From: Priapulus caudatus
Lineage: Eukaryota; Priapulida; Priapulimorpha; Priapulimorphida; Priapulidae
Reading direction: 5' to 3'
DNA length: 64,000 nt
Assembly (NCBI RefSeq): GCF_000485595.1
Contig: NW_014578226.1
Span: forward strand, 10,792-74,791
Shown: piece by piece, positions 1 through 36,790 of the stretch
How the letters are laid out: the number at the start of each line of letters is the position of its first letter
How positions within the stretch are numbered: position 1 is the first letter of the stretch
The notes under the pieces: model-generated
Told to the model about the DNA's origin: nothing
The model's input: only the letters and a program-made list of their open reading frames with translations
The model's database searches: none
Made by a program: the position numbers and the translations under genes

Positions 1-3000
1 GACACCAACAACAGCGCCAACGTCGCACGACAGATCAAGCGCCGGATCGTCCTTCCCAAGGCAACGGCGACAACATTGCGCGCGACCAACTCAAAGTTAT
101 GCGAGTCGGACCCGCATCAGACGGACCAAACCAGACCGGATGTTAAACGGCTGTCAGCGCAGAGACGGGCACACGGAAAAATTCGCAAGCAACGTGGCAG
201 CGCTGTTTCCCTAAATTGCGTGCTTCAGCTGCCACCACTGCCAGAAGTACCTCAGCGTCGTAAAAAAATATCTCCTCATCGCCGCTTAAAGCTAGAAGGT
301 AGGTCTATAGCTGAAAGACGGATTGTAGCTCCAGTGACTGGCGAACCTAATCGGCAAACAGTCTCACCGATGTACCCTCAGATTAACCAAAGACACGTAG
401 GTAGAAGACAATCACCAGTTGCCGATCAGCTACCATCATTAGGTGAATTATTGCCGCACGAAACCAAGATGACAATATCCGATATAAAATGTAAACCTAG
501 TGTCACGTCTCGATCAGCGAATGATGCAGGCAGACATATCTCTAAGATTACAAGACCAACGACGCTGGAAATCGAAAAGAGCAAAGCCGATAGCGTAGAC
601 ATACATAGACAGGTGTATCCTGTCACTGCTATGTATTTGCCTACGCCCGCCAGAGAGACGAGAAATTTGAACTATGGACCGGTATCTTCATACACTAATA
701 GTAAAAAAAACGAGGGTGTCACAAATATGAAAAAATTATACTGTGGACATGGCACGTCACCTACTATTGTTCACATAGACAACGATACCGCAGTGACAAA
801 ACAAGGTAGAACTGAAACATCCATCGCCACTGTTCAGACAGTCAGTGATACCACAGTGACTAAACAACTAAACTGTGGCCGTGAAGCATTATTCACCAGT
901 GTTCAGACAATCGACGAAGGCGCGGGGAGGAAACAATTAATCCGTAAAACTGGAACATCATCTAGCAGCCTTCAAACAATCAGTGATGCAACAAAGGTAA
1001 AACAATGTGGAAGTGATACATTGCCCACGATGGTTGATACATTTACCGATAACAGTGAGATCAAACGATTGAACTCGATGGCTAGTGTTACACATGTAGA
1101 CGCAATACCTGAGTCTGAAAAGTCGTTGCCAAGCGAAAATGTTTCGATAAATAATACGCAATACAATTGCAAGAACTATGGTCATGTACGCAGGCAAGAT
1201 CAACAGACCAACACAATCATTTCTGGTTTACCCTCCAATAGTTCGTCTTATGAGGAGGTATCAGAGTTTAATGCCAGAAGAATCAGTGGCGATATTAATA
1301 AATTAGGACCTCCTATGTTTACTGACGTTATAGTCACAGGCAATAAGCTTGGCATTTATGTCCCTTATGCTACTAATAGGATAAAAGCAGTGTCTACAAC
1401 ACCTGTTGCTGCACCAACCAGCATGAAAGAAACTGGTATAAATTTGTTGCGTGATAAAGCTCACAAAGATTGTGAAACAGCATATGCGCACAAATTCACT
1501 GTTGGTGCCGCGACTACTAGCGGCTATAATACATACAATCATGCGATTGAAACAGGGGCCAGAGAGAATTATGTAGCCTGCCATCTTATGCCAGAAATTG
1601 TCAAAACAGGAATTAGTAATGCATTATATGACAAATTGGTAGACGAAACAACTATCGGTAAACTAGTTCCGTCAGCTAGTATCCTACCAAAGTCTCAAAT
1701 TTTGCTTGAACCATCAATACCCCCTCCCCACCACAACACTTTACAAGACGAAGAATGCATATCGCTTGCCGATGGCACAGATGCAGAAGAATATATATCT
1801 GACCAGCTCACCAAAGCATGTAGCTCTAGTTGTGATGACACAGAAACTATGAAAAATCTGGTTTCAGAACGTGAACCTAACGCATGCGACAGAAACAAGA
1901 GCAATTCGAAAAACAGTCACGGTGAAAGTGAATCACTCAGCAAGTTCAGTCAACGTGGTCACATCGGGAGTCAACTTGACAGTTACATACAAACAGAACC
2001 GCCTTCAACAATGACGTCCTCTACCTCTAATGGAACGGCTAAGGATATGGCGTACAGAAAGGGTTTGGTCCACATGGAATTCTCAATGATGCCAGACAAG
2101 GGAGTTTCAAAATGGACCCATAGTAGCTTGTCGTGTGGAGCACTGTGTACGAAACACACGAAGAAAACATACAGAGTGCACGAGTCATTTGTCAGCGTCG
2201 GCAACGCTCACGAAACATACGACATGGCTACTACGGTTGTAGCAACCGTTGATGACCTAGCAACGAATCATACTAGCAGTGAGATTACCCCACCTGGATG
2301 TTCTACTGAGGAGGGAATGACCGATGACGTTACTCTAAATTACCCACCAACTATTGAATTGATGGCTGCAACTGTTGGTAAATACCCCGTATATTCTGAC
2401 GTAGTCGGCCAATCAGACAACACTGCCACGCAGTCAAAACAAAGCACAACAAATGCGATGCTGGAGGATAACAACTATTTTACCAAAGCTGATTACAGCA
2501 TGCAGACCCTAAATTCCGCTGTGGTAGCAAGACCAAATGAACAATGTCCACAGGCAAATTTCATTCCATCCCTCACTTGTTGCGAAAATACAGCGACCGT
2601 ATACGTAGTCAACAACGTGACTATGGCAACAACCGAGTGTCAATTTGATAAAAATAGCACCACCAATACCACTAATAAGATCACCAGTGTTTCCAGTGGT
2701 AGCACTTCCGAAGATATGGCTTTGAACCTAAGTGTTCAGCAAGACAAGCCTCGCCTGATGAAATATCATGGGGATTGCCGCAGAAACAGTGTTCCGGTAA
2801 CAGCTCTCGAACGGAATGGCAGGCAGAACAAGTGTGACAAGGATACCAGATCGATGCGCAGTTCTAGCTGCCTGACTGGGACAGAGTTGCACACCACGAC
2901 ATCACATCAGATCTTCGCACCATCCTGGCGGGGCAACAAGTTCGTAATGAAACCACACACATCATCCACAGAAGAAATATCGCAGCAATTATTATCTTCG

Positions 3001-4656
3001 ACGGTGACGCTGGTCATTGAGCCGCCGCAGCGCCAATGCGAATCCGTGCACAAGCAACGAGAGGCGCTCTTGATGTCAGAAAAACATCGTTATCGATCAT
3101 CCATGTCCATAGCTAAAACAAACCCGCTAAAAAAGACGCATAAACCAGGTTTCGAGGATAAATATTTGAGAAGAAACAGTTTGCCAGCGACGAAAGTGTG
3201 TGCAAAGACGCAGTTGATATCCAGGCTCAGAGGACTGCACCGCAGGAGCCTCATAGTACCCACAAGATCATTCACACGATCGACAAGATCGCTCACACTG
3301 CCCACTAACATAGTCACCATACGCATGAGTGACATAACGCTGTCGGCTGTGCCCCGCGTGCCACGTGCGAGAGGTGACAAAGACGGCCGCCAACAGCAAA
3401 CCCAGAAGAAGAAAATGACGTTCACTGCGCCGATGATTGTGCTGCATGACGCCAGTACGGCAACGTTGTCGAATGCCAGCCTGTCGCTGTCGAGCCTCAA
3501 CCTATATAGCCACGATGAACCGCCCGTACCTGAACGAAGGGCCTCACTGTCCTGTTCAGAGCACTCATTTACTATGCTATCAAAAATCGTGCGCCACAGG
3601 CTCGTGACAGAGAATGATCAAAGTAGCATGGATGTGCGAACACCGTTCTCTGCTCGCCACAGCAACAGCCCGCTGACAGCAATCACTCCTGATTTCGGAC
3701 TGCCAGACATCATACTGCAGAAGCCGATTGCGTCGACGTCGCGGCGCGAGTCGATCTCGTCTTCACGCCATGGATCCATCAGCCCATCAAATCGAAGTAG
3801 TTCACATAGTAGCCTCGACAACATCAAGAAGGTCATCACGCGGAGTTGTCGGCGAGATAGCATGGCTTCCGGAAAGAGCTACTCATTGCCTGGCTACGAG
3901 CCTGCGCATACAAGTAGTAGCAGTAGGAAACGCGAGTCCGTCACTCTTCGCACGCCACCCTCAAATTCCATATCAACTCCGTCGACGCCCTCGATGTTGT
4001 GCCGCACATACATCAGGAAGGAAGACAGCCTGGCGCCGAGCATTACATACGGGCCGCTACTAACGCCAGGTTCGACCAGCGGCGCTGCCATGCCGACTTT
4101 TGCGAAGCAACTCAGCGAGAACTCGAACACTGCCACAAACAATGCAATACTCTTTCCGGCAACCGTTAGTCTGACAACCGAGGGCACGGCGATAGAACCT
4201 GTCAGCATTGAGGAGGAGAGGCAATCGGTGCAGTCGCACAGAACGGGTAGAGGAAGTTCTCAGGCGTTGAGAAGTCAAGTAGTGCATGAACGACCCTCAT
4301 CAAACAGCTCCCAGGGGTACACAAACGCATACTTATATGGGTTATCAGTAAGGTCGGTGCACTCGATGAAAGCTTCCACCGTACCTAAAAACTTGATTAT
4401 GGACACGAGCAGTAGCATCATAACAGCTGGAACAATGACCCACATGCTGTCGTGCGAAAACCTATCAGCTCCCTCGCCGCTAAGAATCAGTTATTATCAG
4501 AGCCCGCCTGACACACCAGTAGCAGTGAATATGATGATTTCTGCAGCAGCAACACCAGATCTGCGACAGAATACACGTGTTGAGAGCTCTCTGCATGACT
4601 CTGCACCACGGCAGGAAGAAAGGAAAAAAATTCAAAGGTCAGTTTGTAGTGGTTAA
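1..4656 (+). CDS. Ser/Thr-rich hypothetical protein, copy 1 (5' end outside window)
   Basis: One reading frame is open from base 1 to the TAA at 4654-4656, 1,551 codons without interruption. The true start lies before the window; in the downstream copy the equivalent frame begins with ATG at 7044. I do not recognise the family. The protein is polar, rich in Ser, Thr and Asn, with no visible membrane span or signal peptide, and is probably largely disordered. The C-terminal half carries a run of Arg-Arg-x-Ser motifs (RRNSVP near residue 927, RRNSLP near 1058, RRASLS near 1180, RRESIS near 1248, RRDSMA near 1284), the consensus of basophilic kinases such as PKA. A donor-like AAAG/GTCAGT at 4634-4643 could splice the frame onward before the stop, in phase with the exon at 12483. 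That this is an expressed gene is inferred from frame length; a decayed near-copy follows downstream. Confidence 0.6.
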   Translation, partial: DTNNSANVARQIKRRIVLPKATATTLRATNSKLCESDPHQTDQTRPDVKRLSAQRRAHGKIRKQRGSAVSLNCVLQLPPLPEVPQRRKKISPHRRLKLEGRSIAERRIVAPVTGEPNRQTVSPMYPQINQRHVGRRQSPVADQLPSLGELLPHETKMTISDIKCKPSVTSRSANDAGRHISKITRPTTLEIEKSKADSVDIHRQVYPVTAMYLPTPARETRNLNYGPVSSYTNSKKNEGVTNMKKLYCGHGTSPTIVHIDNDTAVTKQGRTETSIATVQTVSDTTVTKQLNCGREALFTSVQTIDEGAGRKQLIRKTGTSSSSLQTISDATKVKQCGSDTLPTMVDTFTDNSEIKRLNSMASVTHVDAIPESEKSLPSENVSINNTQYNCKNYGHVRRQDQQTNTIISGLPSNSSSYEEVSEFNARRISGDINKLGPPMFTDVIVTGNKLGIYVPYATNRIKAVSTTPVAAPTSMKETGINLLRDKAHKDCETAYAHKFTVGAATTSGYNTYNHAIETGARENYVACHLMPEIVKTGISNALYDKLVDETTIGKLVPSASILPKSQILLEPSIPPPHHNTLQDEECISLADGTDAEEYISDQLTKACSSSCDDTETMKNLVSEREPNACDRNKSNSKNSHGESESLSKFSQRGHIGSQLDSYIQTEPPSTMTSSTSNGTAKDMAYRKGLVHMEFSMMPDKGVSKWTHSSLSCGALCTKHTKKTYRVHESFVSVGNAHETYDMATTVVATVDDLATNHTSSEITPPGCSTEEGMTDDVTLNYPPTIELMAATVGKYPVYSDVVGQSDNTATQSKQSTTNAMLEDNNYFTKADYSMQTLNSAVVARPNEQCPQANFIPSLTCCENTATVYVVNNVTMATTECQFDKNSTTNTTNKITSVSSGSTSEDMALNLSVQQDKPRLMKYHGDCRRNSVPVTALERNGRQNKCDKDTRSMRSSSCLTGTELHTTTSHQIFAPSWRGNKFVMKPHTSSTEEISQQLLSSTVTLVIEPPQRQCESVHKQREALLMSEKHRYRSSMSIAKTNPLKKTHKPGFEDKYLRRNSLPATKVCAKTQLISRLRGLHRRSLIVPTRSFTRSTRSLTLPTNIVTIRMSDITLSAVPRVPRARGDKDGRQQQTQKKKMTFTAPMIVLHDASTATLSNASLSLSSLNLYSHDEPPVPERRASLSCSEHSFTMLSKIVRHRLVTENDQSSMDVRTPFSARHSNSPLTAITPDFGLPDIILQKPIASTSRRESISSSRHGSISPSNRSSSHSSLDNIKKVITRSCRRDSMASGKSYSLPGYEPAHTSSSSRKRESVTLRTPPSNSISTPSTPSMLCRTYIRKEDSLAPSITYGPLLTPGSTSGAAMPTFAKQLSENSNTATNNAILFPATVSLTTEGTAIEPVSIEEERQSVQSHRTGRGSSQALRSQVVHERPSSNSSQGYTNAYLYGLSVRSVHSMKASTVPKNLIMDTSSSIITAGTMTHMLSCENLSAPSPLRISYYQSPPDTPVAVNMMISAAATPDLRQNTRVESSLHDSAPRQEERKKIQRSVCSG

Positions 4657-4739
4657 GTTTTACAATACATTATCTGTGACGTTAACAGTCAGTGGAGAGA
4701 TACTGGTGATCGCAGTGGCACCACTGGTGTTACAGGTAG

Positions 4740-5786
4740 TAGCACCAAGATTGGTCAGTGCTTAGGGCATCAGTGAGCCTTAATCCGCCCCTGCTACCAA
4801 CCCTTACGATTTCGGCGAAATTTGTACGATTTTAGCCAAGAATTCCACCATTACAATTCACTCACATTTTACTACGATTTTGGACCATTATGAGTAAAAA
4901 ATAATTCAATCTCGATGTAAAAACTGCCTGGAGAATTGTTGCCACTCCTGCCATGGGAGTGGTTATTTTACAGGAAGTTGATATATGTACTTCCAAAGAA
5001 CGTCACATGCGCTCTCTTGGTAGAGACTCGACCAATTTATTGGATTATGTGTTCTCATAGCCTGTATCATAGCTTAGAAATATTGTTATGCATGTATCTT
5101 TGTGTTTGTTGTTAAACTACAACGAGTATGCATATGATTGTAATTTATTTGTAAAAAAATTCGATGTAGAACTGCTATTAAGTTATATAGTGTTATACTT
5201 AAATGACTCGTTACCCAAGATTCCTTCTTGGCGAAGAAAATTCCTACCCGTAAAGATTGAAATTCCTATTAGACAAAGGTCAATATTAGCAGCTCTGAAA
5301 CGATAGAAAGGAACACGTAATACATAAAGCTGGGATAGATGGGAAGAGAGGAAGCATCACATTTCCTTGCAATTAGTTGTCTCCATGTTAATATATAGAG
5401 ATATGGTAACAGAGAAAGTGTCCTGTATTAGTGTAGAGATAGATGGAAGTTTCTAACACTTACCGATCGCATATGTTACGATGGGAAGGCCTGTAATGCC
5501 CCTATACGAAGCATGAATCATTGGAAGCAAATGACAGAAAAAATCAAATTGGAATGTCGTATGTCTCACATGCAAGAATAAATCAGGAACGTTCATTTTA
5601 ATGACTTATTGGATGGGTTTGTGACCGAGCCTGACGCTGCGTAGTCCGCAGACCACACCTGAGCTATTTCACCGAAGATCGTTACTGGATACTCAGAAAA
5701 TTCACGAAATGGTTGAAGTAATTCGGAGAGATCTTTACGATGTCGTTACTCAAGAAATTGAAAGTGCAACAAAATACGCGCCTATA
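4740..5786. other. Spacer without recognised gene
   Basis: AT-rich sequence between the duplicated units. The longest frame (5088-5306) begins in simple sequence and has no recognisable domain; I do not call it a gene. No RNA gene or inverted-repeat element was seen. Confidence 0.5.
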
Positions 5787-6289: not shown

Positions 6290-7040
6290 ACTAATTAGCT
6301 AATAGAAAACAGCAACATTTGGCGAGCTTGCTAATAACTATAACTACACATAATGCAAACAAGCGAACCGTTCAGAGATCGATGAAGAGCTCGAAGGAAT
6401 ACTGTCCGTAAAGAATAAAATACGTATGATGTCATGACCCAAATGTGCTCGATATCTCTCCGGGGAAGACCATTTGGTCAAGCAACCATGGCACGGGGGT
6501 TTGGATGCCATCAGCATACGCAATTCTGGCTCCAAGATCATTTTTGTTTTAGAGATAACGCATTTAGTTAAACTCAGCGATGTGAGAAATAGGCGAATAA
6601 CTGCGAGCAACCAATTATAACTAGCAGAGTGCGCCAGGAGTAAAGCGTGCCGTTTCACTCAAAGGATTCCTCTGTCCGCGAATAATAGTTACTACAGTCA
6701 TTGATCGACATAATATCTCGAATCGCAGGTATCTACCACGTAATTCCATAAGCGTACAGACGTCATTGACATACACACTTGCACGTGAGATACACGTTTT
6801 CCAACAGTATTCGTCTAAAAGGCATATATTCACACAAGATGTATAAGAGCACACAACGAAGCACCTTTATAGTAACTAAGTCGTTCGAAGGCGATATAAT
6901 TCACCGAGGTTTTTAACCACGCGTCCTCGGCACTCGTTCTAGCGCACACGACGTATGTTGTCACGCCTCGCCTTTCTGGATTCCATCATTAATCCCTGAA
7001 CGACTCTTCTTTGTACGAGGAACCGTGCGCGCGGGCGTGA
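6290..7040. other. Spacer upstream of copy 2
   Basis: No recognisable gene. The last part (about 6900-7040) turns GC-richer and leads into the first ATG of copy 2, so a promoter or 5' untranslated region is plausible here, but I see no decisive motif. Confidence 0.35.
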
Positions 7041-7043
7041 GTC

Positions 7044-10000
7044 ATGGCGTGGTCGTGTGTACCACTGTGCAGCAACATACCGTACACGTCGAGCGATAAT
7101 TCAAGCAGACGCGCAGGGGCTCCGATACCGGTGATGCCCGCCGACGACACCAACAACAGCGCCAACGTCGCACGACAGATCAAGCGCCGGATCGTCCTTC
7201 CCAAGGCAACGGCGACAACGGCGACAACATTGCGCGCGACCAACTCAAAGTTATGCGAGTCGGACCCGCATCAGACGGACCAAACCAGACCGGATGTTAA
7301 ACGGCTGTCAGCGCAGAGACGGGCACACGGAAAAATTCGCAAGCAACGTGGCAGCGCTTTTACCATAAATTGCGTGCTTCAGCTGCCACCACTGCCAGTC
7401 TAAGCACCTCAGCGTCGAAAACAAATATTTCCTCATCCCCGCTTAAAGCTAAAAGGTAGGTCTATAGCTGAAAGACGGATTGTAGCTGCAGGGACTGGCG
7501 AACCTAATCGGCAAACAGTCTCACCGATGTACCCTCAGATTAACCAAAGACACGTAGGTAGAAGACAATCTCCAGTTGCCGATCAGCTACCATCATTAGG
7601 TGAATTATTGCCGCACGAAACCAAGATGACAATATCCGATATAAAATGTAAACCTAGTGTCACATCTCGATCAGCGAATAATGCAAGCAGAAATATCTCT
7701 AAGATTACAAGACCAACGACGTTGGAAATCGAAAAGAGCAAAGCCGATAGCGTAGACATACATAGACAGGTGCTATGTATATACATTCGTACATAGATAT
7801 AGGTACATACATATCCTGTCACTGCTATGTATTTGCCTACGCCCGCCAGAAAGACGAGAAATTTGAACTATGGATCGGTATCTTCATACCGCTCACTATT
7901 GTTCACATAGACAACGATACCGCAGTGACAAAACAAGGTAGAACTGAAACATCCATCGCCAATGTTCAGACAGTTAGTGATACCACAGTGACAAAACAAC
8001 TAAACTGTGGCCGTGAAGCATTATTCACCAGTGTTCAGACAATCGACGAAGGCGCGGGGAGGAAACAATTAATCCGTAAAACTGAAACATCATCTAGCAG
8101 CCTTCAAACAATCAGTGATGCAACAAAGGTAAAACAATGTGGAAGTGATACATTGCCCACGATGGTTGATACATTTACCGATAACAGTGAGATCAAACGA
8201 TTGAACTCAATGGCTAGTGTTACACATGTAGACGCAGTACCTGAGTCTGAAAAGTCCTTGCCAAGCAAAAATGTTTCGATAAATAATACGCAATACAATT
8301 GCAAGAACTATGGTCATGTACGCAGGCAAGATCAACAGACCGACACAATCATTTCTGGTTTACTCTCCAATAGTTCGTCCTATGAGGAAGTCTCAGAGTT
8401 TAATTCCACAAGAATCAGTGGCGATATTAATAAATTAGCACCTCCTATGTTTACTGACGTTATAGTCACAGGCAATAAGCTTGCCATTGATGTCCCTTAT
8501 GCTACTAATGTGATAAAAGCAGTGTCTACAACACCTGTTGCTGCACCAACCAGCATGAAGGAAACTGGAATAAACTTGTTGCGTGATAAAGCTCACAAAG
8601 ATTGTGAAACAGCATATGCGCACAAATTCACTGTTGGTGCCGCGACTACTAGCGGCTATAATACATACAATCATGCGATTGAAACAGGGGCCAAAGATAA
8701 TTATGTAGCCTGCCATCTTATGCCAGAAATTGTCAAAACAGGAATTACTAATGCATTATATGACAAATTGGTAGACGAAACAACTATCGGTAAACTAGTT
8801 CCGTCAGCTAGTATCCTTCCAAAGTCTCAAATTTTGCTTGAACCATCAATACGCCCTTCCCACCACAACACTTTACAAGTCGAAGAATGGATATCGCTTG
8901 CCGATGGCACAGATGCAGAAGAATATATATCTGACCAGCTCACCAAAGCATGTAGCTCTAATTGTGATGACACAGAAACTATGAAAAATCTGGTTTCAGA
9001 ACGTAAACCTAACGCATGCGACAGAAACAATAGCAATTCGAAAAACAGTCACGGTAAAAGTGAATCACTCAGCAAGTTCAGCCAACGTGGTCACATTGGG
9101 AGCCAACTTGACAGTTACATACAAAAAGAACCGCCTTCAACAATCACGTCCTCTACCTCTAATGGAACGGCTAAGGATATGGCGTACAGAAAGGGTTTGG
9201 TCCACATGGAATCTCAATGATGCCAGGCAAGGGAGTTTCAAAATGGACCAATAGTAGCTCGTCGTGTGGAGCACTGTGTACGAAGCACACGAAGAAAACA
9301 TACAGAGTGCACGAGTCATGTGTCAGCGTCGGCAACGCTCACGAAACATACGACATGGCTACTACGGTTGTAGCAACCGTTGATGACCTAGCAACGAATC
9401 ATACTAGCAGCGAGATTACCCCACCTGGATGTTCTACTGAGGAGGGAATGACCGATGACGTTACCCTAAATTACCCACCAACTATTGAATTGATGGCTGC
9501 AACTGTTGGTAAATACCCCGTATATTCTGACGTAGTCGGCCAATCAGACAACACTGCCACGCAGTCAAAACAAAGCACAACAAATGCGATGCTAGACGAT
9601 AACAACTATTTTAGCGAAGCTGATTACAGCATGCAGACCCTAAATTCCGCTGTGGTAGCAATACCAAATGAACAATGTCCACAGGCAAATTTCATTCCAT
9701 CCCTCACTTGTTGCGAAAATACAGCGACTGTATACGTAGTCAACAACGTGACTATGGCAACAACCGAGTGTCAATTTGATAAAAATAGCACCACCAATAC
9801 CACTAATAAGATCACCAGTGTTTCCAGTGGTAACACTTCCAAAGATATGGCTTTGAACCTAAGTGTTCAGCTAGACAAGCCTCGCGTGATGAAATATCAT
9901 GGGGATTGCCGCAGAAACAGTGTTCCGGTAACAGCTCTCGAATTGAATGGCAGGCAGAACAAGTGTGACAAGGATACCAGATCGATGCGCAGTTCTAGCT

Positions 10001-11751
10001 GCCTGACTGGGACAGAGTTGCACACCACGACATCACATCAGATCTTCGCACCATCCTGGCGCGGCAACAAGTTCGTAATGAAACCACACACATCATCCAC
10101 AGAGAGAATATCGCAGCAATTATTATCTTCGACGGTGACGCTGGTCATTGAGCCGCCGCAGCGCCAATGCGAATCCGTGCACAAGCAACGAGAGGCGCTC
10201 TTGATGTCAGAAAAACATTGTTGTCGATCATCCATGTCCATAGCTAAACCAAACCCGCTAAAAAAGACGCATAAACCAGGTTTCGAGGATAAATATTTGA
10301 GAAGAAACAGTTTGCCAGCGACGAAAGTGTGTGCAAAGACGCAGTTGCTGTCCAGGCCCAGAGGACTGCACCGCACGAGCCTCATAGTACCCACAAGATC
10401 ATTCACACGATCGACAAGATCGCTCACACTGCCCACTAACATAGTCACCATACGCATGAGTGACATAACGCTGTCGGCTGCACCCCGCGTGCCACGTGCG
10501 AGAGGTGACAGAGGAGGCCGCCAACAGCAAACCCACAAGAAGAGAATGACGTTCACGGCGCCGATGATTGTGCTGCATGACGCCAGTACGGCAACGTTGT
10601 CGAATCGCAGCCTGTCGCTGTCGAGCCTCAACCTATATGGCCACGATGATCCGCCCGTAGCTGAACGAAGGGCCTCACTGTCCTGTTCAGAGCACTCACT
10701 TACTATGCTATTAAAAATCGTGCGCCACAGGCTCGTGACAGAGAATGATCAAAGTAGCATGGATATGCGAACACCGTTCTCTGCTCGCCACAGCCACAAC
10801 CCGCTGACAGCAATCACTCCTGATTTCGGACTGCCAGACATCATACTGCAGAAGCCGATTGCGTCGACGTCGCGGCGCGAGTCGATCTCGTCTTTACGCC
10901 ATGGATCCATCAGCCCATCAAATCGAAGTAGTTCACTTAGTAGCCTCGACAACATCAAGAAGGTCATCACGCAGAGTTGTCGACGAGATAGCATGGCTTC
11001 CGGAAAGAGCTACTCATTGCCTAGCTACGAGCCTGCGCATACAAGTAGTAGCAGTAGGAAACGCGAGTCCGTCACTCTTCGCACGCCTCCCTCAAATTCC
11101 ATATCAACTCCGTCGACGCCCTCGATGTTGTGCCGCACATACATCAGGAAGGACAGCCTGGCGCCGAGCATTACATACGGGCCGCTGCTAACGCCAGGTT
11201 CGACCAGCGTCGTTGCCATGCCGACTTCCGCGAAGCAACTCAGCGAGAACTCGAACACTGCCACATACAATGCAGTACTCTTTCCGGCAACCGTCAGTCT
11301 GACAACCGAGGGCACGGCGATAGAACCTATCAGCATTGAGGAGGAGAGGCAATCGGTGCAGTCGCACCCAACGGGTAGAAGAAGTTCTCAGACGTTGTGA
11401 AGTCTAGTGCATAAACCACCCTCATCAAACAGCTCCCAGTGGTACACAAACGCATACTTGTATGGGTTATCAGTAAGGTCGGTGCACTCGATGAAAGCTT
11501 CCACCGTACCTAAAAACTCGATTGTGGACACGAGCATTAGCATCATAACAGCTGGGACGGTGACCCACATGCTGTCGTGCGAAAACCTATCAGCTCCCTC
11601 GCCGCTAAGAATAAGTTATTATCAGAGCCCGCATGACACACCAGTAGCAGTGAATATGATGATTTCTGCAGCAGCAACACCAGATCTGCGACAGAATACA
11701 TGTGTTGAGAGCTCTTTGCATGACTCTACACCACGGCAGGAAGAAAAATAA
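7044..11751 (+). pseudogene. Decayed second copy of the Ser/Thr-rich protein gene
   Basis: Near-identical to the frame at 1-4656 and extending it 5' to an ATG at 7044 (protein begins MAWSCVPLCS). It is disabled in several independent ways. A TAA (7401-7403) comes from a 3-bp longer variant. There is an insertion of roughly 40 bp with 'tacata' character near 7770 and a deletion of roughly 100 bp near 7890, relative to copy 1. A one-base loss near 9211 leads to TGA at 9218-9220. A TGA lies at 11398-11400 and a TAA at 11749-11751. Long segments between the lesions stay open (for example 7775-9220 and 9217-11400), so decay is recent. The RRxS motifs of copy 1 are kept. Which copy is the functional one rests on copy 1 being intact within the window. 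Confidence 0.8.
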
Positions 11752-11862
11752 AATCCTAAGGTCAGTTTGTAGTGGTTAAGTTTTACAATACATTATCTGT
11801 GACGTTAACAGTCAGTGGTGAGATACTGGTGATCGCAGTGGCACCACTGGTGTTACAGGTAG

Positions 11863-12145
11863 TTGTGATTGTGGGCCTATGGTGGTGTCACTAGCTGTAA
11901 CTGTTTGTGGTGGTGGTAGCGGCGTGGTGGCAGTGGCGCCGGTGGCGGCAGCGGGATTGATGGTGGTATTGGTGGTGGTCATCGTCGTGGTTGTGATGTT
12001 GGTGGCAGGGGTGTAGTGGTGGTGGTGGTGGTAGTGGTGGCGGTGGTCGTTGTCGTGGCGGTGGTGGTGGTGGTGCTGGTGGCAGTGGTGGTGTTAAGGG
12101 ATTAGTGGTGGTGGCACTGGAGATGGCAGCGGTAACAGTATAGTA
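11863..12145 (+). repeat. GGT-rich degenerate trinucleotide tract
   Basis: About 280 bp of imperfect ggt/ggc/gat triplets begins immediately where copy 2 stops matching copy 1. It is strongly purine/pyrimidine asymmetric and G-rich on the + strand. It may mark the breakpoint of the duplication. Confidence 0.85.
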
Positions 12146-15806: not shown

Positions 15807-16230
15807 ATTATTTGATTAACACATGTGAAATGTATGTGATGGCAATGAGTAGGGCCTACAATTGAGTATGTAGGTGTGTGTGTGTTGGTGTGTGTGTGGT
15901 GTTATGTATGTGTATGTGTATGCAGGGATGCAGGTGTATGTACGCAAGTGTGTATTTGTATGCATGTATGTATGTAGAGGGGTGTGTGAGGTAATGTGTG
16001 TAATTGTTGACCAGTGCAAGTATAGAGGGTTCCGCGACTTGCTCTAAAAAAGCAATATTACCTACAATCCCGTGCCGCCGGCCATACTGGTAGTCGGAAT
16101 TGCGAACACGTGTTACCGATATGCGCAATCTAGCGATTTTACATCGATAGATTGTACATACGATAGTGTTATTATAGTAATCTATATTAGCAGTAAGTGG
16201 ATCCCGGTTTTGCAGACAGGTTTACCAGTA

Positions 16231-21527: not shown

Positions 21528-22439
21528 ATTATTTGATCAACACATGTGAAATGTATGTGATGGAAATGAGTACAATTGAGTATGTAGGTGTGTGTGTGTG
21601 TCGGGTGTGTGTGTGTGTGGGTGTGTGTGTGGTGTTATCATATGTATGTGTATGTGTATGCAGGGATGCAGGTGTATGTACGCATGTTAGGCTATGAGCA
21701 AGGGTGTTGTCGGTACCATACAGATGGAGTAAGGCTCATTGTGATTTTTAGCAAGATATATGTCCCTAGATATTAAAAAAATGTGATAGCAGGTGTAAAA
21801 CTCGCCATCTCTGTGTTATCACCCGAAATAGTATTATACCCCCTCTTGGCTTCGCCAAAATATGTGTTATTGTGGTAAAATTGGAATAAATATTTTTTTA
21901 AGGACCACAGAGTGCCAATCATGTGCATACTGGATGCCAACTAATATAGTAATATAAATATAGAACATTTGTGGGGGTTATTTGTCAAAGTTTTGATATA
22001 ATGACTAAAAATATGTTAAATTTAGTGAAAAAGTGGCCGAAATCGCTTTGACTTCAAAATTCACATTGCACGTTTCTGTCAATATTTCAAAATGAAAACT
22101 CCCAGAGTAACATATTACCCATCAAAAACTTCACAAGGACCCACTGCATTGGAATATATCATTACTTTGTAATATGGTAGTTGTTTGTGGCACATATCTT
22201 GGCAAAGTTCAACCATACCCCCTAATTTTGATATTTGGGAACAAAACATAGATTTTGAACATTTTAGGTTTTAGGTTTAATTTTTTGGTATTAGCTAGTA
22301 TCCCATGGTAGGTATGTAATATCAGGTACATTATATTTCACAATACATGCTTTTGATATAATGTCTAAAAATATGTTAAATTTAGTGAAAAAGTGGCCGA
22401 AATCGCTTTGACTTCAAAATTCACATTGCACGTTTCTGT

Positions 22440-25400
22440 CAATATTTCACAAGAATGGCTCACTTGCCAGTGTGTTTTCTGGGAAGATGTAACACCGAGC
22501 AGTGTATGTGCACAAGTTTGTGTATGAAGCATTCATGAGACTAGCATGGAAGGCATTCATTCCATGGGTTGAGAAAAACAAACCAGAAGAAAAGCACAAC
22601 ATAACGTCTGTGTCAGAAGAAGTGAGTGATTTGGTCGAACATTTGTGACAACAGAAATTTGACAGTCTTCTGGCAAACCCCAAATACACGGAGTTAGTCA
22701 CCACCTGGAACGAATTCTTAGACTATCTTCGCCATGAAAACGGAGAACTCTCAGCCTTTTGGATGTCTTATGTGGACATAGTTGAAAACGTCTTGCTTGC
22801 CCTGCTGCGTGCTGCTCAAGAAGGAAATTGGGTCTTGCATCTCTTTGCTATCCACAACATGATCCCCTGCATGGTGTTTTGCATACGACAGATTTAACTA
22901 TGCACGATACCTACCAGCGTATTATGCTGAGATGACCAATCTGGCAGCCAATCATCCAGCTGTGTACCAGGCTTTCTTGAGTGGTTTGTTCTCTGTTCAA
23001 CTATCCTGTCACAATACATTTGGACGCATTCCCGTTAACCAAACGACTGAAGTCACTGTGAACAAGGACACACAGACTCCAGGAGGCACAACAAGGTTTA
23101 GTCTGAAATCAGGAGCAGTCAAGTGCTATTACATTACTGCAGAACACAGGAGGGCCTTTCTTGGTCAGATGAGGGAAATGGTACATGAAGATGGATCAAA
23201 TGTTCCACATGCTGACCTGCACAAGACGCGTGTGAGGAAAGATGAGCAGGCCCGTAGCCAGCTTTGTATTGGGGGGGGTTCGTTTTTAATGTTGGCAATT
23301 TGCTCGGCAGGGGCGTGTACAGGATTTGTACCAGGGGGGGTCTAACCGTAACCCGAAGTTGCGAGCACGCGAAGGGGGGGTCTGGGGGGCCGTCCCCAGA
23401 AAATTTTTAAAATTACACCCCCTCAGATGCGTTTTCTGCGCGAGCAAGGTGGGGTCGCGACTCCCTGGACCCCCCCTGTACACGCCCTGCTCGGGCGCGA
23501 AGCGACAGGCGAGGGAGCCAGCGACCGAGCGGGGGAGGGTGCGGGAGGGAGTGTTCACTGTTCACGCTCCCCGCACGATGGAGATTTTGCAATTATTACA
23601 CTAAAATAGAGCGACCTGAGGTGAAATTCTTGCAAATTAAAATTTTTTTTTTTTGGCTTGGGGCCGGGGGGGGGGTTCGTTCGAACCCCCCGAACCCCCT
23701 GGCTACGGGCCTGGATGAGGATGCTGTTTCGACAATCGTACATCTGGTGAAGAGCTGGGTAAATCCATTTGAAGAAGCCCACGAACTTATCAGTATCTCG
23801 ACAGCAAAAAAAAGCCCCCAAAGATATCTGCTCGGATTTGAAGAATGCCAGAGACATTGGAGTTCAATGCTACACCGACTTCAAAGCTGAGAGACTCGAG
23901 ACGGACCCACCAACCAAACGCTTTCATGATCCCATGAAAATGAACAAACTGAAGACCTTCAGCAATTTATGCAAGAAGAAAAAAGTCCAGATGAGTGGCA
24001 GATCCGTGATTCTTCAAGGTGACAGAGCATTGTTTGGTCGCATCATTGTGATGGCACAGGGACGAAATCTGCAAATGGCTGATGTACTATCCCATCCTCT
24101 TGGTCTATTACCATGGGCACTGGCAACCCCAGAAGGTCTTCACTGTAAAACCAACAAGGCTGCTCTTGCTAGTTATCTACAAAAGAATGCCCCAGCTGAC
24201 AAACTTCCTGATCATTCTGCAACCATAATAGATGGAATGAGCATAATCCAGAAGGTGAAAGGTCTGAAGGAAACCAAGTCAACTTTGAGGAAATTCCCCA
24301 GTTTGTTTTGTGCATGGCACTGAATGATGGCAGCACTAGTGACAGGATCGACATCGTCTTCGACACCTACAAAGATACATCCATCAAGAACTGTAAGGCT
24401 CGCCAGAGGAGAGGAACTTGGCCTGAAGCTTCAGAACATCACAGCATCGCAAATTGTAAGGCAATGGAGAAGCTATTGGCCCATGTTGGGAATAAGTCTA
24501 GCCTCATTTCATTTCTGGTGAGCGAATGGAGGAAACCAGATTACACCAAGCGTCTGAATGGAAAGGTCTTATTTGTAACAACTGAAAACAAGTGTTACAA
24601 AATCACCACGGAAGGACACCAGGAGGTGCTTGAGCTTCAAAGTACACACGAGGAAGCAGATGGTCGACTCTTACTTCACGCTGCTCATGCTGCACAGACT
24701 GGATATCCAGCAGTTGTAATCAGCTCCGATGACACCGACGTATTCATCATGGCGTTGGCGTTTCATACTCAAATTCAATCACCATTGTTCCAGAAATGTG
24801 GCACCAAAGATCGGAAACGAATCATTGACATTACCAAAATTGCAGCTTCAGTGGGCGCAGATGTTTGTCATGGACTTATAGGGATGCATGCTTACACAGG
24901 TTGGCAACACTGTCAGCACATTTGCAGGCAAAGGCAAACTAGGAGCGCTTAAAATGCTTAGGTCTAGCAAAGAGGTCCAAGAAACGTTCGCCGAGTTGGG
25001 ACAAGAATGGAATGTGGCCGATGAGCTTATGGATAAGCTGGAGAATATCACATGCCTCCTATATGCATCCAGGTCTGGTACAAAGGAACTTAATAGCCTT
25101 CGATACCATCTATTCTGTGCGAAGAAGGGGGAGATTGAGAGCCACCAATTGCCTCCATGCAATGACTGCTTCCGAAAACACGTACAGCGAGCCAATTACC
25201 AGGCAGCAATTTGGAAACGAAGCCTTCAGAGGCACACAATGACGCCCAGCCCAGTTGGAAAGGGATGGAAATGGGATGATCAGGATGAAACAACTCTGGC
25301 TGTGGACTGGATGAGTGGACAGCCAGCACCTCAGGCTCTTCTGGATTTGTTGGCCTGTAATTGTTCCAGGAGCTGCAAGCTACCAAATTGTGTCTGCATT

Positions 25401-25532
25401 GCCAGTGGACTGAAATGTACAGACATGTGTAAACTTGCTGTCTGCGACAATCAGCCATTGTCTGACGGGTCAGACAACGACAGCCTCGACGAAGATGATT
25501 CATCTGACGAGGAGCAAGAATACGGATTCTGA
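22440..25532 (+). pseudogene. Decayed transposon gene: PIN/FEN-like nuclease core plus CXC cysteine cluster
   Basis: Translated segments in shifting frames join into one protein of a multi-copy invertebrate family I recognise but cannot name. In order: an N-terminal region (SAFWMSYVDIVENVL; FAYDRFNYARYL), the signature VNKDTQTPGGTTRF at about 23060, a middle region (SGRSVILQGDRALFGR), an acidic core (EADGRLLLHAAHAA at about 24655, SSDDTDVFIM at about 24725, GLIGMHAYTG at about 24880) and a C-terminal Cys cluster (about 25350-25440; CNCSRSCKLPNCVC then KCTDMC). The E/D spacing followed by a TGCD-like turn recalls FEN/PIN nucleases; the Cys cluster recalls tesmin/TSO1 CXC domains. Lesions: an in-frame stop near 22646, a 4-bp insertion near 22873, the hAT-like insertion at 23247, frameshifts near 23815 and 24320, and a frameshift inside the TGCD motif near 24900. 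It is therefore not functional here. Confidence 0.75.
23247..23713. mobile_element. 467-bp hAT-like MITE inside the long-TIR transposon gene
   Basis: Perfect 15-bp ends: caggcccgtagccag and ctggctacgggcctg. GATGAG is duplicated on both sides (23241-23246 and 23714-23719). The interior is G/C-run rich (gggggg, cccccc) and non-coding. It interrupts the gene between VRKDE and the continuation DEDAVSTIV. Confidence 0.9.
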
Positions 25533-25796
25533 GCAAAATATGCTGCGCATCTAAAAGGACACTTTCGTGATGTTTTTTCAGACGTAAGCATTAGTTAGTA
25601 TGTGTTTAATTTCAATGCCTGTAATCTGTGTCAATTGTGTTAAAAATTAACTGGTAATAACAATGTATAATATAACAAGGCGTGTTAAAAATTGACTGGG
25701 TAATAACAATGTATAATATAACAAGGCGTATTTAATCGGGAGATCATTTAATGATAACATAATTATGATAAACCTAGTGTGGAGCAATTTTGCATG
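25533..25796. other. 3' untranslated stretch between gene end and right arm
   Basis: AT-rich; contains a direct repeat of about 45 bp ('gtgttaaaaattgactgg', then 'taataacaatgtataatata') at 25637-25730. No gene. Confidence 0.5.
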
Positions 25797-26573
25797 TATT
25801 GTGAAATATAATGTACCTGATGTTACATACCTACCATGGGATACTAGCTAATACCAAAAATTAAACTAAAACCTAAAATGTCAAAATCTAAGTTTTGTTC
25901 CCAAATATCAAAATTAGGGTATGGTTGGACTTTGCCAAGATATGTGCCACAAACAACCACCATATTACAAAGTAATGATATATTCCAATGCAGTGGGTCC
26001 TTGTGAAGTTTGGATGGGTAATATGTTACTCTGGGAGTTTTCATTTGTGAATTATTGACAGAAACGTGCAATGTGAAATTTTGAAGTCAAAGCGATTTCT
26101 GCCACTTTTTCACTAAAGTTAACATATTTTTGGTCATATATACAAAATTTTGACAAATAACCCACAAATGTTTATATTGCTAATACTATATTAGTTGGCA
26201 TCCAGTAGGCAAATTATTGGCACTATGTAGTCCTTAACAAAATATTTATTTCAATTTTACCAAATATCACATATTTTGGCAAAGCGAAGAAGGGGTATAA
26301 TACTATTTCGAGTGATAACACAGAGATGGCCGAGAGTTATACACTGCTATCACATTTTTTTCATATCTAGGATATATATCTTGCTAAAAATCACAATGAG
26401 CCTTACTCCATCTGTATGGTACCGACCGGTCAATTTGGGGGGTCTGGCTCATAGCCTATGTGTGTATGTGTATTCATGTATGTATGTAGAGGGATGTGTG
26501 AGGTAATGTGTGTAATGGGAAACCGGCAAAAACAATAGGCATATAGAGGGCGCTGATAGGCAAGTGAGTCCTG

Positions 26574-33311: not shown

Positions 33312-33690
33312 GTTTATAGTAGTATATCGGAATGTAAAAATGTAAATAAAGGGCGTCTGCACGTACGAACAGTACAGTGACAAAGGCATAGGTCAAAGGT
33401 CAAGACTCACTTGCCTATCAGCGCCACTCAGCGGATTAGTTCTGCCGGTTCCCCATTGTTGACCAGTGCAAGTATAGAGGGTTCCGCGACGTGCACTAAA
33501 AATAGCAATATTACCTACAATCCCGTGCCGCCGGCCATCCTGGTAGTCGGAATTGCGAACACGTGTTACCGATGTGTGCAATCTAGCGATTTTACATCGA
33601 TAGATTGTACATTCGATAGTGTTATTATAGTAATCTATATTAGCAGTAAGTGGATCCCGGTTTTGCAGACAGGTTTACCAGTAGTGGGAC

Positions 33691-34080: not shown

Positions 34081-36790
34081 TAAGTTACAGAAATGTTATC
34101 TGCCCTTCTTGCTCTGTCTGTTAATAGCTATTCATGGACACTGCCCACGCCAATTAAGATGCCAATTAACAAAATTATTAACACAATTAGGCTAATTACA
34201 TAGATAATACAACAATAATAACAGAACCAGATAGTGATCATTATGGTGGCTTGCTCTCATCAGATCAATCCTGGGCAAGTCAAATGTTATACTTCTGTGG
34301 TCAAGGGACACAACTATCATGTTAATTAACACATAATATGCTAAATGCAATATACAGATAAGTTCAGTTTTACAGTACCTGTGTACTGTCTGGAACAGTT
34401 AAGAATCTTCATCTTAAGTTTGCGCGTTCAGTTCTAAGAGCACTCTCCCGCGAAACATGGTGGAAATGCCGACGACACACCCTGAAATAGCCCAGGATTC
34501 CGAGCTGGGAACTTCACCGTCCAGAAGACGAACAGGTCGTTCTCCGCCATCCCCGTCGATCGGGCTTACGAGCAGAACAATGCTGCCATCAAAGAAGACG
34601 GAGGTGCAGTGGGCCTGACTGACAACCCCAGCGCTCTACGACGGTGGATGGTGGCAGGATCAGGTTGCCACGCTCATCGAACAGTTCCACGATGAAACTG
34701 ACCCGGGAACAGACCACAAGACACAAGGCACCATGACCAGTCAGCAAGTGTGCAGACTGCTTTCCTGAAAGATGTACAGTCGATGGTCAACGTAATGGAA
34801 GACTTGGAGAATCCATTTGTTGAGGAAGTGAGTCAAGATCTGCGGGTACTCGACACCAAGGAGATCGCACCACCTGGAGCTGTAGACGCCCTCCGTCATG
34901 CACACGAAGTGGGTCAGCTGCAGTTGGACAACATCGTCAAAGAACGCTTGGTGGAGATAACGGAACCCATAGGAGATGCCATCCAAAGAAACAAGCTAAA
35001 AATCTTCGGTCAGCCTGCTTCAAAACCTCCGGGAAAGGGCAATCAGCAAATAAAATCCCTCAAGAATAACGCGGACCTTTTGTCTCGTCTGTATATCGGG
35101 TGCCAAAACCGGGATGGAAATCTAGAGCAATTCTTCTAACATGAAAACCAAGCCTGCCCCTGCACTATCAGGCTGGGTGTCAAGAGTGATCTTCTCGCTT
35201 GTCTAGAAGACCTCAGTCAGCCCAAGTTTGAGGTTCCTCCAACCAGCTGCATTGTGCTAGATGGAGCGGTCATCATCCAAAGGCTGAAGCCAGCTACAGC
35301 AAAAAGCTTCAACGAGTATGCACAGCAGGTCTTTGTGCCCTACATACTCTCAAAACTCCATCAAGCCACGCGACTGGACCTGGTGTGGGACCGCTACAAT
35401 ACAGACTCGTTGAAGGGTACAGCAAGAGCCAAGCGCGGAAAAGGGGTGAGAAGACGGGTGGTGGGTGGTGCAACGATCCCCGGGAACTGGAACAGCTTCC
35501 TCAGAGTCGACGAGAACAAGAAAGAGCTGTTCAGCTTCCTCTCTGGCGTCCTCCACGACTCATTCCAGCTTGCAGACAAGGAGCTGGTCATCACTGAAGG
35601 AGATGATGTCTTGCCCTGGCTCCTTGCAACCACGAAGAAGCCGACAGCCGCATGATGTTGCATGCCGCCCACGCTGCTCACAATGACCACAAGAAGATCC
35701 TCATCCGCACAGTTGACACTGATGTTGTTGTCCTGGCAGTGGCTCTGGCACGCACCCTGGAGGAGGAAGCCGAAGTGTGGGTGTCCTTCGGCAAGGGCAA
35801 GGCTTTCCAGTTTTTGGCAGCCCATGAGATGGCGCGCGCTCTGGGCCCTGAGAAAGCACAGGCACTACCGATGTTTCATACTTTGACGGGCTGCGACATG
35901 GTCTCCTGCTTCGCCGGACATGGCAAGAGGACAGCATGGGCAGTGTGGACAGCTCTCCCTCAGCTGACCCAGACACTCACTGACCTCTCCACTGCACTAG
36001 ATCATATTGATGAAGATGCCATGCACACCATCGAAAGTTTCGTCATCCTGCTTTACGACAGAACAAGCACCGCAACCGATATCGACAAGGCACGCCGCAA
36101 ACTGTTTGCAAAGAAGAGCAATGTCCTGCTGATCCCACCGACAGGTGCAGCCCTGAAGCAGCACGTCCGACGAGCAATATACCAGGGCGGACATGTCTGG
36201 GGTCAGGCCCTGGTTCCTGCACCAACATTGCCATCACCAACCGACTGGGGTTGGATCAAGAACAGAAACATGTACGAACCTCTCTGGACAACGCTCCCCA
36301 AGGCATCCAAGGTCTGCCGAGAGCTTATCTCCTGCAAATGCCAGAAGGGCTGCATCAAGAGGTGCAAGTGCAAGAAGGCCAGTCTGGAATGCACACCACT
36401 GTGTGCTTGCGACGGGGAGTGCTCTCAGAACTAAACTCGCAAACTTAAGATGAAGATTCTGAACTGTTCCAGACAGTACACAGGTACTGTAAAACAGTGA
36501 ACTTATCTGCATATTGCATTTAGCAGATTATGTGTTAATTAACATGATAATTAAATGTAGTAGTGTCCCTTGACCACAGAAGTATAACATTTGTCTTGCC
36601 CAGGATTGATCTGATGAGAGCAAGCCATCATAATTATCACTATCTGGTTCTGTTATTGTTGTTGTATTATCGATGTAATTAAACTAATTGTGTTAATAAT
36701 TTTGTTAATTGGCCTCTTAATTGGCGTGGGCAGTGTCCATGAATAGCTATTGACAGACAAAGGAAGGTCAGATAACATTTTCACAACTTA
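34081..36790. mobile_element. Second long-TIR transposon, about 2.7 kb, TIRs about 350 bp
   Basis: The left arm (34081 to about 34432) and right arm (about 36436-36790) are inverted copies; recognisable blocks include 'gaatagctattcatggacac', 'gcaagccatcataat' and 'actgttccagacagtacaca', each present in both orientations. The arm sequence is unrelated to that of 21688-26458, yet the enclosed gene encodes the same protein family. No target duplication is visible, because the right flank runs straight into Gypsy sequence and the left flank does not, so a rearrangement has happened at one edge. Confidence 0.8.
34490..36434 (+). pseudogene. PIN/FEN-like + CXC transposon gene, second family member, internally deleted
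   Basis: The fragments in order are: an N-terminal block at about 34555-34650 (NNAAIKEDGGAVGLTDNPS, RRWMVAG); 34750-35139 (VDALRHAHEVGQLQLDN); 35254-35655; and 35652-36434. The last two hold the core: LDGAVIIQRLKP, LVWDRYNTDSLKG, HAAHAAHNDH, RTVDTDVVVLAVALA, LTGCDMVSCFAGHGKRTAW, and the C-terminal cysteines (CKCQKGCIKRCKCKK, then ECTPLCACDGEC). Here the TGCD motif is intact, unlike the 4.8-kb element. Compared with that copy the VNKDTQTPGG middle region is missing (internal deletion), and frames change at about 34660, 35140 and 35650. Its GC content is clearly higher than that of its flanks. Confidence 0.75.

Follow-up and report, generated by a model that had tools for sequence, protein, structure and literature searches.

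The window analyzed here, a 64,000-nucleotide stretch of the Priapulus caudatus genome (contig NW_014578226.1, positions 10,792 to 74,791), contains a 4,771-bp transposable element whose long inverted arms enclose a broken gene. The element lies at positions 21688 to 26458 of the window (left tip, TAGGCTATGAGC; right tip, GCTCATAGCCTA), and its gene, read on the plus strand in a frame that ends at 25532, retains only part of the coding sequence for a larger protein, the rest having been deleted. The features are collected in Table 1.

Limits of the element and its target site

The two arms are identical at 609 of 651 ungapped columns (93.5%), and blastn alone paired 21709-22350 with 26426-25792 (92.7% identity; E = 0.0), so that chance is excluded as the source of the inverted arms. 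An earlier reading of this DNA, made without database searches (the sequence-only reading), had proposed the same limits with arms of about 660 bp, and these limits proved exact to the base. That reading had also taken copy A, a repeat copy lacking the element, as proof of an insertion that duplicated TGT. Copy A does match both flanks without the element (left, 15874-15949 at 91%; right, 15948-16004 at 95%), but its empty-site triplet (15947-15949) is AGT and not the TGT found beside the element. By itself, the agreement of the two TGT flanks is weak (chance of about 0.10 in a GT-rich flank). It is backed by the other copies, as six of the seven with both ends readable carry identical 3-bp flanks, and the proposed 3-bp target duplication thus stands.

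Table 1. Features of the window element and related sites (window positions)
Feature	Position	Strand	Basis
Copy A, both flanks without the element (empty site)	15874..16004	+	blastn and direct read
Left target-site duplication, TGT	21685..21687	none	Direct read
Left terminal inverted repeat, 663 bp	21688..22350	+	Alignment to right arm; 50 genome matches
102-bp repeat of an inner left-arm piece (98% to 21991-22092), extending into the gene	22351..22452	+	blastn; beside left arm in several other copies
Transposase-half remnant: helical part beyond D1/D2, candidate Glu at about 23049-23051, TGA at 22646-22648	22453..23240	+	tblastn with P0049 residues 701-968; frames; shared stop
Insertion of later date (23247-23713), GATGAG on each side, enclosing another piece at 23308-23489	23241..23719	none	Sequence read
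Broken FEN/XPG-type nuclease part	23720..25352	+	Frames; predicted fold of relative P0092
CXC-like cysteine cluster	25353..25454	+	PF03638 at E = 0.025, under cut-off
Right terminal inverted repeat, 667 bp	25792..26458	-	Alignment to left arm
Right target-site duplication, TGT	26459..26461	none	Direct read
Second, divergent family member, starting past D1/D2; own arms spanning 34090-36782, ACA on either side	34087..36785	+	tblastn; arm alignment; genome arm matches

Nuclease and cysteine cluster of the broken gene

The sequence-only reading had described one gene between the arms. This gene is not intact, being disrupted by an in-frame TGA, several frameshifts, and the nested insertion. Within the nuclease part, the motifs IIDGM (24225-24239), EEAD (24650-24661), and DDTDV (24728-24742) can be read, and the frame breaks at the TGCD site near 24902. 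None of the open reading frames (ORFs) of the window matched Pfam above cut-off, PF03638 (Tesmin/TSO1 CXC) reaching 15.3 bits against a cut-off of 23.5, and phmmer of a 214-residue piece against PDB sequences gave chance-level matches only. The insertion in the gene has inverted ends (CAGGCCCGTAGCCAG...), and the piece nested within it has inverted ends of its own.

Relatives were collected with the read-through window protein (259 found, 120 listed; 7,995 candidates scored), and a further protein collection listed 120 of 295 (7,996 candidates scored). Alignments A1, A2, and A3 comprise 63, 75, and 27 of the 120 listed proteins, A3 having been picked for the patterns of the first and second acidic motifs, D1 and D2. 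The nuclease half of relative P0092 was modeled with a FEN/EXO1-type fold, and the EEAD, DTDV, and GCD columns are at least 90% conserved in A2. The predicted fold and the conserved acidic residues, the two marks of the FEN/XPG superfamily, together show a nuclease half of the FEN1/EXO1/XPG type. PF03638 was found in 3 of 27 relatives at an E value of 0.1 or better (best, 0.00054). The earlier description of a FEN/PIN-like nuclease joined to a CXC-like cysteine cluster is therefore borne out by the fold model and the cluster, with CXC under the Pfam cut-off, and the structure prediction that it had called for gave the FEN/EXO1-type model of P0092.

A transposase-like half in the relatives

Among the relatives listed, P0049 comes nearest to the window protein where the two overlap (89.6% identity over query residues 1-384), and it begins 714 residues earlier. 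In tblastn of P0049 on the window, the element was matched from residue 701 onward only. Compared with the window gene, 35 of the 120 listed relatives start at least 350 residues further out, and 26 of the 120 do so by 100 to 349 residues. The A3 proteins, chosen for both acidic motifs, align well with W-D-N-x-D and D-Q-A-x-Y. A count independent of that choice was made on the collected relatives of at least 1,400 residues: the first acidic motif, EEAD, and TGCD were each present in 70 of 70, and the second motif as written was present in 60 of 70. P0049 itself stops short of the nuclease core, and so it is in other relatives that the two halves occur side by side.

In the model of the N-terminal half, the strands follow the RNase H order, and the best structural match of this model is the P-element transposase, at a moderate Z score. 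Foldseek with this model gave no match at an E value of 0.001 or below, and in Pfam, 5 of 27 relatives touch DUF6589, a domain of unknown function, in this half (best E = 1.1e-7). Because motifs, strand order, and best structural match agree, the N-terminal half of the relatives looks like a DDE transposase of the RNase H type that holds a large helical insertion, an assignment less firm than that of the nuclease fold. The proposal of a transposon working without a DDE enzyme is not supported by these results: the RNase H fold that the sequence-only reading had named as evidence against it is indicated by modeling in the lost half, and the long relatives carry the first acidic motif alongside both nuclease motifs.

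Copies of the window family in the genome

The assembly searched comprises 385 Mb in 2,952 contigs. A number of the left-arm matches form inverted pairs 3.7 to 4.7 kb apart, and several of the 19 stretches taken around arm matches have an arm without a gene match. Between such arms, P0049 matches begin at residue 683 at the earliest; a single match reaching back to residue 641, in copy L010, falls beyond the arms. The junction of the 102-bp repeat with the gene aligned in one piece in 8 of 11 copies (L010, L011, L013, L014, L015, L017, L018, and L022) and was not continuous in L012, L016, and L021. Of eight aligned copies, six share the TGA at 22646, and two have a gap there. In each of the eight copies counted (8 of the 11 compared, the more diverged L017, L018, and L021 being omitted), the three codon positions differed from the window copy to a similar degree, with no marked excess at the third, and every window-family copy whose frames were read is broken. 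The shared junction and stop and the lack of codon-position bias indicate that a 5'-deleted ancestor with the TGA multiplied without need of its protein. The 102-bp repeat was considered as filler private to the window copy and rejected as such; it adjoins the left arm in other copies and was therefore part of the amplified ancestor.

The identical 3-bp flanks are TGT (window copy and L016), TAT (L011), TTG (L027), and ATA (L015 and L021), and those of L010 differ (AGA/TAT). The duplication starts in L010, L015, and L021 were placed by eye at decayed tips, and L021 and L027 stand further off in the family, with an arm likeness confined to the outer 100 bp or so. The search for long inverted repeats and 3-bp duplications around genomic copies, which had been suggested as a check, thus found both. 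Strong protein divergence between similar-armed copies (tblastn identities of 21 to 40%) was rejected, since DNA identity is mostly 74 to 97% (67 to 80% for L021) and the low protein values are largely due to frameshifts.

Relatives with both halves

A search of the same genome with P0049 gave 49 matching places (42 of 526 candidates scored), with open stretches matching residues 27-1093 at 47% on contig C701 and residues 43-1093 at 44% on C1755. On C701 (locus L029), a 1,256-residue open stretch with both transposase motifs is followed by a frameshifted nuclease end. Its 253-bp arms (1234-1486 and 6750-7002) are 100% identical, which suggests recent movement or conversion, and their poly-T outer ends make the duplication unreadable. 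L031 (C1003) has arms of 408 to 416 bp at 91% identity, with tips 69 to 74% like those of the window element; its broken frames retain the two transposase motifs together with those of the nuclease, and the flanks are CAT/TAT. At L032 (C591), both halves lie between arms no shorter than 654 bp (93% identity), and no clear duplication was seen at the ends examined. No arms were seen at L030, where the stretch includes 574 N. Among the 42 of 526 candidates scored, none exceeded 63% identity in the lost half; the assembly may lack the helper that moved the window family.

Among viral contigs, no relative could be confirmed. A contig in a Planctomycetota metagenome-assembled genome (MAG) record (L001), the sole match in a set of genome contigs, encodes a relative at 32% identity over P0049 residues 169-1093; no long arms were seen on it, and it is probably a stray eukaryotic contig in the MAG bin.

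A second element and other repeats in the window

The protein of the second element is 26 to 30% identical to P0006 by tblastn, with matches starting at P0006 residue 792, past D1/D2. Its arms are 91 to 94% identical in the main blocks, one arm has 28 genome matches, and the reading phase of both ACA flanks fits a 3-bp duplication. The host sequence is an apparent gag ORF of a long terminal repeat (LTR) retrotransposon, and long ORFs downstream look by eye like the protease, reverse transcriptase, and integrase of such an element.

Elsewhere in the window, 763-4740 and 7895-11863 are two directly repeated copies of a sequence about 4 kb long (96.6% identity). A 229-bp sequence, perhaps another mobile element, occurs at 16003-16230 and 33455-33683 (97%) and starts where the copy A flank match ends.

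Discussion

With its long arms, 3-bp flanks, and truncation, and with a junction, a stop, and an absence of codon-position bias common to its lineage, the window element is very probably non-autonomous and derived, by 5' deletion, from a cut-and-paste DNA transposon whose relatives combine a DDE transposase, a nuclease, and a CXC-like cluster in the AcademX architecture. The complete protein of the relatives would comprise about 1,400 to 1,600 residues, with the DDE transposase at the N terminus followed by the FEN1/EXO1/XPG-type nuclease and the cysteine cluster. In intact relatives, the DDE domain would carry out cleavage and joining at the long inverted ends, leaving 3-bp duplications, and the nuclease would have the accessory task of trimming ends or flaps. 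Lacking D1 and D2 and carrying stops and frameshifts, the window copy must have moved in trans. The element thus drops out as a possible example of a transposon that uses a novel cutting enzyme and is ordinary in kind. The abundant anonymous proteins of invertebrate genomes that carry DTDV, TGCD, and CXC-like motifs are tied to a transposon of the DDE type in which a FEN/EXO1-type nuclease is fused to the transposase.

What remains of interest is the role of the fused nuclease during transposition. In Tn7, labor is divided between TnsB and TnsA. By analogy, the two halves could share excision in intact relatives, the DDE domain nicking and transferring one strand at each end and the nuclease cutting or trimming the other; we regard this as an improbable arrangement, which would be a eukaryotic counterpart of the Tn7 split. 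If true, it could explain why, in the available part of the published account, nuclease-bearing Academ elements have 3- to 4-bp and helicase-bearing ones 9- to 10-bp duplications (PMC10045372).

It is unlikely that the same DDE-plus-nuclease element represents a superfamily separate from Academ. Such a separation would suit a best structural match to the P element and a transposase half in which only 5 of 27 relatives touch a Pfam domain, and the comparison with Academ made here was one of published descriptions. Against it, a nuclease, a DDD/E transposase, and 3-bp duplications fit the AcademX description as far as the available text goes (PMC10045372, PMC9587614), and the mean length of bivalve Academ consensus sequences, 5,565 bp in the part of the source seen, suits such a protein plus arms (PMC10294476).

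Far less credible is a reading in which nuclease-only derivatives are not random deletion products but have been retained by selection, for instance in the role of a repressor or a trans-acting factor. Within the 64 kb of the window, two distant members retain the nuclease end without the transposase end; however, both families are multicopy, so that two internal deletions can be coincidence, and the window-family copies that were read through all have broken frames and diverge similarly at all codon positions. Least credible of all, and rejected as largely refuted, is the sequence-only reading's autonomous transposon cut by a FEN/PIN-like nuclease with no DDE enzyme, for which a sound fold model, conserved acidic motifs, and the nuclease-only content of the examined elements with these arms can be cited, but against which stand the transposase-like half deleted from the window copy, the common stop without coding constraint, and the two-half relatives between long arms in the same genome.

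Comparison with known systems

The nuclease half is 14 to 16% identical to EXO1, and the sequence match alone is not significant (E = 1.1); it differs from EXO1, FEN1, XPG, and XRN nucleases in belonging to a transposon and in the CXC-like tail that comes after it. P element and hAT transposons leave 8-bp duplications; the element differs from the P-element transposase (6p5a) and the hAT transposase Hermes (8sjd) in its 3-bp duplications and fused FEN/XPG-type nuclease. The AcademX nuclease was reportedly described as XPG-like by Kojima in 2020, and our literature search found no text joining Academ with XPG.

In the portions of the literature available, AcademX leaves 3- or 4-bp duplications and is linked to a nuclease, AcademH leaves 9- or 10-bp duplications and is linked to a helicase (PMC10045372), and Academ is counted among the superfamilies with a DDD/E transposase (PMC9587614). 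The flanks of 3 bp (six of seven readable copies, and ACA/ACA at the second element) agree with AcademX and not with AcademH, a nuclease of predicted FEN/EXO1-type fold is encoded by the element, and the DDD/E transposase is indicated by motifs and model in the full-length relatives only. The suggestion that the family had no existing superfamily assignment is therefore nearly contradicted. By architecture and duplication length, judged against these partial descriptions, the relatives look like Academ elements of the AcademX lineage, which they resemble in their 3-bp duplications, protein-borne nuclease, DDE-like half, and long inverted ends; the window copy differs in having lost the transposase half and being non-autonomous.
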